Below the pieces are notes generated by a model. That model was not told the DNA's origin and did no database searches. It saw only the letters and a list, made by a program, of their open reading frames with translations. Source: a virus. From it: a stretch of DNA of 24,667 nt. The first letter of the stretch is position 1; each line of letters begins with the position of its first letter. The stretch covers positions 1-24,667 of the IMG/VR virus record IMGVR_UViG_3300042472_000487; one strand, 5' to 3'. Below are positions 18,030-19,262 of this stretch, in pieces. The translations under genes were made by a program, and so were the position numbers.

Positions 18030-18429
18030 ATTCTTCGGTAAGTCTTGGGTCAATTGAGATTGAGGTCGGCTGATCGTCTTCTTTGACATAATTCTCCTTT
18101 GCGTATTTATCTAAGTTCGCTAGAAAGGCTCTCCACGGTGCCACCTCCACTGGTAACGGTCTCCGTGTTATTTCTTTTACGAACGCCATGATCATGGCAC
18201 GAATCTGATCGGTTGTAAAGCCCTTGTCGGTAAGTTTCTTGAAACCCTTCATCAGGGCAGGACCATTCACTGGGGAGGTGATCCTGTCCATGGTCTCGGT
18301 CGGGAGGCTGGCTCGGAAGAAGTACACCAAGTTCCCACGGGAGTCTTGGCGGGTCTGTTTTGGGGCGGGTTCTTTTTTGTCAGGGTCTTCACCTAAGCCG
18401 ACGCCCCAGTCGTCAGAAAGTTTCTTCAT
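18028..18429 (-). CDS. Hypothetical replication protein, 133 aa
   Basis: The protein has a polar, Lys/Asp-rich head (about 1-35) and then a compact helical region. This includes GFTTDQIRAMIMAFVKEITRRPLP and EVAPWRAFLANLDKYAKENY, which looks like a small protein-interaction domain. I do not recognise a family. It lies directly after the initiator gene, the place held by the helicase-loading partner in lambda-like phages, and just before the DnaC-like gene, so it may bridge initiator and loader. The ATG at 18429 is chosen because GAGG lies 8 nt upstream; the in-frame TTG at 18435 is less likely. It overlaps the initiator gene by 17 nt. Confidence 0.7.
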   Translation of the reverse strand: MKKLSDDWGVGLGEDPDKKEPAPKQTRQDSRGNLVYFFRASLPTETMDRITSPVNGPALMKGFKKLTDKGFTTDQIRAMIMAFVKEITRRPLPVEVAPWRAFLANLDKYAKENYVKEDDQPTSISIDPRLTEE

Positions 18430-18898
18430 CTTCAAGCCTCTGATCTACTTGTATTGAAATTTTCCCTTTCTTGTTATTTTTACTCTTGTTATATACTCTT
18501 GATTGGGTGTCACCCGTGACACTACTAGTGGTGTCTCCCGTGACACTACCTAGTGTCTCCATGGACACTACTAGGGGTGACTCGTGTGACACTACTGGGT
18601 TGTTAAAATTGACGTAATAGCGATTCGTCAAGTTCTTGTTACTGCGGGTCACACGGTGCTGTTTGACAATCAGACCGATCTCTTCTAGGCGCTTCATAGA
18701 GCGAATTACGGTTCGGCGGTCACAGCCCAACTGGTCAGCAATGTGCTGGTAGGAGGTTGTCAGTTCCTGCGTTTCTGGGTGCAGGTACTGGAGCATGTGG
18801 TTCAGTACTGCGTGTGAGATGTAGTCCGTAGAGATGTACGGAAGGACCCACCTTGGGACTGGTAAAAAAGGTCCACTCAACTTGTTGTTTCGTGCCAT
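18413..18898 (-). CDS. Winged-helix replication initiator with the origin inside its gene
   Basis: The N-terminal 100 residues form a winged HTH (FLPVPRWVLPYIS, helix ELTTSYQHIADQLGCDRRTVIRSMKRLEEIGLI, wing NLTNRYYVNF). The pattern matches initiators of the lambda O / DnaD-N type. The next part is encoded by four palindromic iterons (18507-18592) and has low complexity (SVTGDTTSSVTGDT). A short basic tail ends it. This is the same plan as lambda O, where the gene for the initiator carries its own origin. The ATG at 18898 has GAGGAG 4-6 nt upstream; an ATG at 18931 would add 11 residues but lacks an RBS. It is the first gene of the replication operon. Confidence 0.8.
   Translation of the reverse strand: MARNNKLSGPFLPVPRWVLPYISTDYISHAVLNHMLQYLHPETQELTTSYQHIADQLGCDRRTVIRSMKRLEEIGLIVKQHRVTRSNKNLTNRYYVNFNNPVVSHESPLVVSMETLGSVTGDTTSSVTGDTQSRVYNKSKNNKKGKISIQVDQRLEDEETF
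18451..18505. other. AT-rich element next to the iterons, probable DNA unwinding element
   Basis: This 55-bp stretch is much richer in A+T than its surroundings. It holds three spaced copies of TCTTG(A/T)T (starting at 18469, 18484 and 18497), the first two within TCTTGTTAT, about 13-15 bp apart. This recalls the 13-mers of oriC and the AT-rich flank of lambda ori. It lies at one end of the iterons only. Confidence 0.6.
18507..18592. repeat. Four palindromic iterons, probable replication origin
   Basis: A 16-bp palindrome, GTGTCACCCGTGACAC, stands at 18507-18522. Related copies are at 18531-18546 (one change), 18553-18568 and 18577-18592 (more diverged). They repeat every 24, 22 and 24 bp and are joined by TACTAG-like linkers. 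The 22-bp step changes the reading frame of the host gene, so selection for the DNA rather than the peptide is likely. The layout (four inverted-repeat iterons inside an initiator gene, AT-rich flank) matches lambda ori. Confidence 0.75.
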
Positions 18899-18948
18899 AT
18901 TGCTCCTCAGGTTGTTATCTAGGGTCGCCATGCTACACTCTCGCTAGT

Positions 18949-18982
18949 CACTTTGGCACTTCCCTGATCGGGTGCTAAAGTG
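18949..18982. promoter_or_regulatory. Near-perfect palindrome over the rightward promoter, operator candidate
   Basis: CACTTTGGCAC (18949-18959) and GTGCTAAAGTG (18972-18982) are inverted repeats matching at 10 of 11 positions, with a 12-bp centre. The arms contain the -35 and -10 of the rightward promoter. Read on the minus strand, the same arms give TTAGCA, 17 bp, CAAAGT, a weaker promoter-like pair facing the replication operon. A dimeric repressor or activator could control both directions. Confidence 0.65.
18953..18981 (+). promoter_or_regulatory. Rightward sigma70-type promoter
   Basis: TTGGCA (18953-18958, 5 of 6 to consensus) and TAAAGT (18976-18981, 4 of 6) are separated by exactly 17 bp. 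Transcription would begin near 18988, a few bases before the folded RNA at 18992, and read into the two small rightward genes. Confidence 0.6.
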
Positions 18983-18991
18983 TGCAATAGT

Positions 18992-19082
18992 GTTGAGGGG
19001 AGGGCGACCTCCTCAGGAACTACAGAGCAAGGGTATTTCCCTCCTTTCTTCCCTTGCCCTTGTTAACGGCCCTCCCTTCAAC
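18992..19082 (+). ncRNA. Strongly folded leader or small RNA with anti-Shine-Dalgarno loops
   Basis: The ends GTTGAGGGGAGGGC (18992-19005) and GCCCTCCCTTCAAC (19069-19082) pair over 14 positions with one G-U pair. Inside, GCAAGGG (19027-19033) and CCCTTGC (19051-19057) form a 7-bp hairpin with a 17-nt pyrimidine loop. That loop contains CCTCCTTTCT (19040-19049), which equals the usual 3' end of 16S rRNA in many Actinobacteria and Firmicutes. A second anti-SD-like run, ACCTCCTC, is at 19007-19014, just inside the closing stem. It lies just behind the promoter and ends 15 nt before the ATG at 19098. No T-run follows, so it is probably a leader or a processed RNA. Confidence 0.5.
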
Positions 19083-19097
19083 CGCTAAACTTGTTTG

Positions 19098-19262
19098 ATG
19101 GCATCTAAAAAAGAAGTATGGGATAAACCCAATCCTAAAAAGAAATCCAGCAAGTTGACCTCTGACCAAAAGTCAGAAGCAAAGGCTCGTGCAAAAGCCG
19201 CTGGTCGTCCGTACCCAAACCTTGTTGACAACATGGCTGTCAGTAAAAAAGGTAAAAAGTAA
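19098..19262 (+). CDS. Small basic protein, 54 aa, of aquatic phage type
   Basis: I read this ORF from the plus strand. It starts MASKKEVWDKPNPKK and contains KLTSDQKSEAKARAKAAGRPYPNLVDNMAV, a motif I recall in small phage proteins of unknown function. No Shine-Dalgarno lies in the 14 nt before the ATG, which follows the folded RNA; translation may depend on that structure. The stop overlaps the next start (TAATG). The protein is rich in Lys and may bind nucleic acid, but this is inference. Confidence 0.72.
   Translation: MASKKEVWDKPNPKKKSSKLTSDQKSEAKARAKAAGRPYPNLVDNMAVSKKGKK

Follow-up and report, generated by a model that had tools for sequence, protein, structure and literature searches.

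A conserved phage RNA with a looped antisense copy of a start-associated Shine-Dalgarno hairpin, a candidate repressor of tagged phage genes

Mycobacteriophages of Cluster K carry 11–19 copies of a Start Associated Sequence (SAS), GGGATAGGAGCCC, upstream of non-structural genes. The available text of the original description also records that Anaya, Adephagia, Angelica and CrimD each have one SAS that points the other way and is not tied to a gene start (PMC3203893). In that text, from 2011, the authors did not decide between an RNA and a protein as the SAS partner (PMC3203893), and a 2024 paper still called the role of the SAS unknown. For Microbacterium phages of Cluster EF, the accessible part of the report describes an SAS as a repeated Shine-Dalgarno (SD) element with GGG...CCC flanks, found before about ten genes (PMC7302621). 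Among bacterial small RNAs, the mycobacterial B11/6C sRNA represses several genes by pairing two open C-rich loops with their ribosome binding sites (RBSs), as described in PMC10470900.

Here we describe a structured element in a virus record of 24,667 bases from IMG/VR, hereafter the window. It displays two anti-SD motifs, the first of which is complementary to SD hairpins at gene starts of related phages.

The RNA element and its conservation

The element sits between a leftward gene for a replication-initiation protein (rep) and two small rightward genes (Table 1). Direct reading and a repeat search both recovered the 14-bp closing stem, with 13 Watson-Crick pairs and one G-U, and the inner 7-bp hairpin that a first-pass annotation of this DNA had drawn. 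The octamer ACCTCCTC is found at 19007–19014, immediately within the closing stem. The loop of the inner hairpin contains CCTCCTTTCT (19040–19049), which we take to be identical to the usual 3' end of 16S rRNA. The minimum free energy (MFE) of the plus strand was -40.3 kcal/mol (z -3.8, with 1 of 200 shuffles equally good), and that of the minus strand -39.8 kcal/mol (z -3.1). In an alternative fold, the 5' arm and motif 1 could form a GNRA-capped 7-bp hairpin of about -13 kcal/mol, paired in 74/77 cells and showing no covariation. On the folding model, this hairpin is a possible early folding intermediate. In Rfam, no family reached the gathering score anywhere in the window, and nothing relevant appeared at E up to 10 for six loci, in agreement with the earlier statement that the RNA belongs to no known class. 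No intrinsic terminator (stem plus U run) was found within 18850–19150.

Table 1 Features of the RNA locus, in window coordinates.
Feature	Position	Strand	Evidence or remark
rep, replication-initiation (O-like) protein, divergent	18413–18898	-	phrog_270, phrog_391
rep SD CCUGAGGAGC	18902–18911	-	9-nt complement of motif 1
Putative RNA promoter, TTGGCA-17-TAAAGT	18953–18981	+	sigma-70-like; 9/12 matches, shuffles 0.2
Structured RNA core	18992–19082	+	fold, covariation
Closing stem, 5' arm	18992–19005	+	covariation; alternative partner is motif 1
Motif 1, ACCUCCUCAGG	19007–19017	+	antisense to start-associated SD hairpin; 9 nt to rep SD
ACAGAG, invariant	19022–19027	+	ACA able to pair with invariant UGU downstream
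Inner hairpin	19027–19057	+	7-bp stem 19027–19033/19051–19057
Motif 2, CCUCCUUUCU	19040–19049	+	16S 3' tail copy; wholly unpaired in model
Closing stem, 3' arm	19069–19082	+	covariation, repeat search
TAAACT, -10 box of probable second promoter	19086–19091	+	6 nt upstream of the next gene's ATG
Small gene phrog_34011, probably leaderless	19098–19262	+	profile match, -10 box spacing

Searching IMG/VR with the rep protein alone gave 26 loci. Both motifs were present in all 20 close rep relatives (83–100% identity) and absent from the five distant ones, and one locus was cut by the contig edge. A pattern scan found the element in 22 contigs, or 23 with the window; these comprise 14 distinct sequences, one of which is a deletion variant. 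In alignment A1 (14 sequences, 12 of them distinct), all 252 of 252 cells were paired over the two helices, and 10 of the 21 pairs had changed on both sides. Its covariation score was matched by 0/500 shuffles, and when the partner was slid along as a control, pairing fell to 50–66%. Alignment A4, with 11 distinct sequences and, like A3, without duplicates, was paired in 275/275 cells over 25 pairs. The structure proposed in the first pass thus passed a check by covariation. One-sided changes in the stems were all G-U on the plus strand, equivalent to A-C mismatches on the minus strand, and therefore it is the plus-strand RNA that is under selection.

In the 13 rows ascertained through rep, every column was invariant in motif 1 (11/11), in ACAGAG (6/6) and in the motif 2 core CCUCCUUUC (9/9), compared with 20/42 columns in the stems and 40/93 upstream. 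The loops are therefore kept more strictly than the stems. A loss of the CCTCC loops with the stems kept, which the first pass had named as evidence against its reading, was not seen; the motifs stayed constant in these rows while the stems varied. This count excludes L002, which came via another gene, as well as the deletion variant L093, which was also kept out of A1–A4. In L093 (2804–2906, minus strand), a natural deletion has taken away the 3' arm as well as the -10 box that follows it, and both anti-SD motifs are retained. Judged by conservation and covariation, positions 18992–19082 (+) of the window encode a real, conserved RNA.

A covariance model run against 170 sources found no distant homologues. 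A weak match, L259 (E 0.058), falls within a long ORF and was discarded. Thirteen additional stretches from a relaxed pattern scan had folds that look like background, and the genome contigs gave 0 matches.

Motif 1 and the start-associated SD hairpins

We compared four long relatives, three with the RNA (G001, G003 and G004) and one without it (G005). Among gene starts, motif 1 formed its strongest duplexes in a gene cluster with SDs like GACCTGAGGAGGTC, TACCTGAGGAGGTA and TGCCTGAGGAGGCA; the exact complement of motif 1, over 11 nt, is CCUGAGGAGGU. The start-associated SD hairpin has the form xxCCU-GAGG-AGGxx with GAGG as its loop, consists of a tag core CTGAGGAGG with covarying flanks, and precedes 5–11 genes in related genomes. 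Start-associated hairpins with ORFs numbered 10 in G001, 5 in G003 and 11 in G004. Over the 39 start-associated sites of the four genomes, the fourth pair was formed in 39/39 and the fifth in 33/39. The same SD-hairpin arrays were seen in other environmental phages (L198, L201, L245, L253, L268, L271 and others), whose 65 sites in eleven loci had the fourth pair in 65/65 and the fifth in 53/65. In each of the four tests, 0/5000 shuffles equalled this pairing, so that covariation across the 104 sites supports the hairpin. On this pairing evidence, the start-associated SD hairpin is a finding in its own right.

An inverted copy of the tag occurs exactly once in each of G001, G002, G003, G004 and G006, and it is always the RNA. 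G002 has 4 tagged sites and G006 has 11; one additional tag site in G003 lies within a gene. The window contains the inverted copy only, being a fragment outside of which tagged genes may lie. G005 has 13 start hairpins and lacks both the RNA and an inverted copy, and therefore the hairpins do not need the RNA. A search of G005 for a different antisense RNA turned up only a strong hairpin of 18 bp, located between two tagged genes (2140–2275, locus L152) and with CCUCCU as part of the loop; it may be a weak counterpart of the RNA but was not convincing.

Of the nine tagged genes tested in G001, one encodes a SNF2/DEAD-type helicase and two others encode proteins with DUF2786 and DUF6011, respectively; the remainder belonged to unknown families or had no match. 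From their kind and their clustering, we infer that the tagged genes are early genes. An element GCGTTTAAAC..CCTGAGGCAT, common to G004 (around 35501) and G005 (around 89921), is found 600–700 bases upstream of the first tagged gene. In G004, positions 70–111 equal 97038–97079, near both contig ends, which suggests that the genome is complete and carries a terminal repeat.

When the RNA was scanned in 10-mers, only motif 1 peaked, with 8, 5 and 9 further complementary sites in G001, G003 and G004, respectively, nearly all of them ≤14 nt upstream of a start codon. For motif 2, the same scan found no complementary target sites in the phage genomes. In an accessibility model, the median energies of motif 1 on tagged starts were -11.5, -10.0 and -10.1 kcal/mol (G001, G003, G004), compared with -3.5, -3.4 and -2.5 kcal/mol on other strong SDs (p 1e-5 to 1e-4 for the difference). 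The free 16S tail reached -5.4, -4.3 and -5.1 kcal/mol on the tagged starts. The rep start ranked 11/145, 12/132 and 2/146 for motif 1 in the same genomes. Opening motif 2 cost 0.0, and on other strong SDs it did no better than the free 16S tail. RNAcofold of the RNA against start regions showed no preference for tagged starts, because contacts of a loop enclosed by a stem are impossible in its nested model; the accessibility model was used for this reason.

The first-pass annotation had taken both loops for copies of the 16S 3' tail. This stands for motif 2, with the 16S end as we assume it: in the scan it is the 16S-tail copy, without a phage-specific target. It does not stand for motif 1, an 11-nt complement of the phage SD hairpin, which by its matches is a specific antisense of the phage start tag and not a generic 16S copy. 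The suggestion that the RNA could mask SD sites is borne out in the model, in which the exposed anti-SD loops and their complementarity to phage starts would permit such masking.

A lone inverted SAS was also observed in Cluster K, where the first five of 15 genomes had one inverted SAS and 15–19 forward copies. In Anaya, the inverted SAS lies in a gene-free gap and is the loop CCUCCUAUCC of a stable hairpin; this exact loop was present in 8 of 17 Cluster K loci and absent from the other 9. The inverted SAS of Adephagia, at 58684, falls in the gap between gene 92 (ending at 58446) and gene 93 (starting at 58879). Late transcription is reported to begin in this gap, with no exact start given in the available text, which would place the antisense copy within the late-transcript leader or close to it. 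For the K1 hairpin, covariation is weak, with 158/160 cells paired and 43/500 shuffles reaching the score, in an alignment that includes Amgine and DarthP, both without the exact loop.

AnnaSerena (Microbacterium EF) has 10 SAS and no inverted copy at up to 2 mismatches. Eleven SAS-array contigs outside the RNA family (of 16 queried), all of them fragments, contained no inverted copy. The proposition that an inverted copy accompanies the SAS in all phages thus fails in AnnaSerena, G005 and several K subclusters, and across the genomes compared the pairing of SAS and antisense copy is not universal. Since G005, AnnaSerena and 9/17 Cluster K loci are without an exact copy, tagged starts must be useful without the RNA, perhaps via a protein or their own folding.

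Neighbouring genes and rival explanations

The promoter claimed directly upstream of the RNA was predicted here as well, and relatives keep a TA(A/T)AGT or TAGGGT box at its position. From this promoter, we infer an RNA start near 18988. Across the promoter, at 18950–18981, runs an inverted repeat, CTTTGGCAC..GTGCTAAAG, and at the equivalent place L099 has another sequence with a longer palindrome; these palindromes are possibly an operator. Two iteron-like repeats lie within rep at 18507–18595. They are 43-nt copies, 81% alike, and each has two GTGTC..GACACTAC-like units. The arrangement resembles that of lambda, whose origin lies within the initiator gene. The rep protein had no match in the phage collection. 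For the polymerase of the window, the best coverage among the matches listed came from Streptomyces phages, at ~34% identity.

It had also been proposed that the RNA could regulate the two following genes in cis, and that the first of these lacks an RBS. The missing RBS is correct, as phrog_34011 has no SD, and this fits a leaderless mRNA. In leaderless mRNAs, the -10 box is expected ~6 nt before the start codon, and relatives with the phrog_34011 gene have a TAAACT-like box exactly 6 nt upstream of the ATG. The mRNA is thus probably leaderless, which would explain the absent RBS. A 5' leader controlling the two small genes would suit the shared strand, the end of the closing stem 15 nt upstream of the ATG and the lack of a terminator between them. 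However, a -10 box of its own precedes the gene, and another gene with an SD takes its place in L096, L099 and L100 while the RNA is retained. The RNA is therefore unlikely to act on the gene that follows it, and the constant association with a downstream gene that marks riboswitches and cis-acting leaders was not found. The cis proposal is not supported, and we give a leader function very little weight.

Could the RNA mainly regulate the divergent rep, like the copy-number antisense RNAs of plasmids, its other matches coming from similar SDs? The RNA adjoins rep in all 20 close loci, which were found through rep, the rep SD with its 9-nt pairing is kept in 20/20, and rep ranks 2 to 12 among 132–146 starts. 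The tagged hairpins, however, are matched over 10–11 nt, exceeding rep, and the first two invariant letters of motif 1, AC, are useless for rep; we consider this explanation improbable. Somewhat less credible is the first-pass idea of an unspecific anti-SD RNA whose 16S-tail copy would cover host (and phage) SDs. It would agree with motif 2 being fully open and invariant, and with the near absence of its complement from the phage genomes, as if the phage spared itself, but it does not predict UCAGG, the half of motif 1 that suits phage start hairpins only, nor does it gain from a motif 2 that matches the free 16S tail at best. A function in the DNA or the minus strand, as an origin structure or as a decoy with sense SD copies, appears the least plausible of these explanations. 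Although the minus strand folds too and displays AAAGGAGG and CCTGAGGAGG, and an O-like rep gene adjoins, the one-sided stem changes favour the plus strand, some outer pairs of the SD hairpin are missing from the minus strand of the element, and the iteron-like repeats inside rep are a likelier origin.

Proposed mechanism and comparison with known systems

We favour, with a probability of about 0.6, an antisense RNA that masks the tagged phage start sites and, more weakly, the rep SD; its transcription, pairing in the cell, repression and timing are presumed. This antisense reading builds on the conservation, the covariation, the strand, the exact complementarity and the census of sites. As in antisense RNAs, extended complementarity to target mRNAs beyond chance was found, both by the scan and in the accessibility model.

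A small regulatory phage RNA would be transcribed from its own promoter, and its long stem would present motif 1 almost open. Motif 1 would pair with the SD hairpins of a gene set (a SNF2-type helicase, proteins with DUF2786 or DUF6011, and further genes without an assigned function), and also with the SD of the divergent rep. By this pairing, ribosome entry would be blocked and translation of the whole gene set lowered together, for example in closing an early phase. Motif 2, as the 16S-tail copy, may provide a second, unspecific SD contact. B11/6C offers a precedent for this reading and the inverted SAS of Cluster K1 a parallel. Against the antisense reading stand G005, AnnaSerena and the Cluster K loci that have no exact antisense copy, the RNAcofold outcome, the loss of the 3' arm in L093, the absence of a terminator behind the stem, and motif 2, which is conserved equally, yet unaccounted for. 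On the sequence evidence, the RNA is most likely a repressor of the tagged gene set and rep.

More tentatively, unrelated actinophage families may have SD-hairpin-tagged genes that are silenced by one phage RNA with a looped antisense copy, the SAS partner in Cluster K1 then being the late-leader hairpin. We see this wider scheme as possible rather than probable. An antisense RNA would be a concrete candidate partner for the SAS in two unrelated phage groups. If true, a post-transcriptional switch of a whole gene set would be added to phage gene control, and the SD hairpin tag with its matching RNA would be a pair open to testing in laboratory strains.

C-rich or kissing loops and the masking of SDs are features of staphylococcal RNAIII and of plasmid antisense RNAs such as CopA and RNA I. 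These differ from the phage RNA in their genomes and targets, their sequence relation to it having been compared through Rfam only. The masking of SDs by RNA loops is thus already known, and what is new is the target and the possible link to the SAS. No earlier mention of such an RNA was found in the literature searched, which lay outside the subscription journals.

With B11/6C, as far as the available text describes it, the phage RNA shares C-rich loops complementary to ribosome binding sites, in this case with CCUCC and not C runs. B11/6C differs in being host-encoded, with C-run loops and host targets, whereas motif 1 is fitted to a start element of phage genes. The Rfam covariance model of 6C/B11 did not match the phage RNA, either at the gathering score in the window or in the six loci scanned up to E 10.

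The likeness to the SAS of Microbacterium Cluster EF, on the accessible part of its description, is a repeated, flanked SD element; the difference is that AnnaSerena is without an inverted copy. Compared with the Cluster K SAS as given in the available text, the consensus is GGGATAGGAGCCC there and the core CTGAGGAGG here, and the phages are unrelated. Both systems have an SD-containing repeat before many non-structural genes and a lone inverted copy, which in K1 is the loop of a hairpin.
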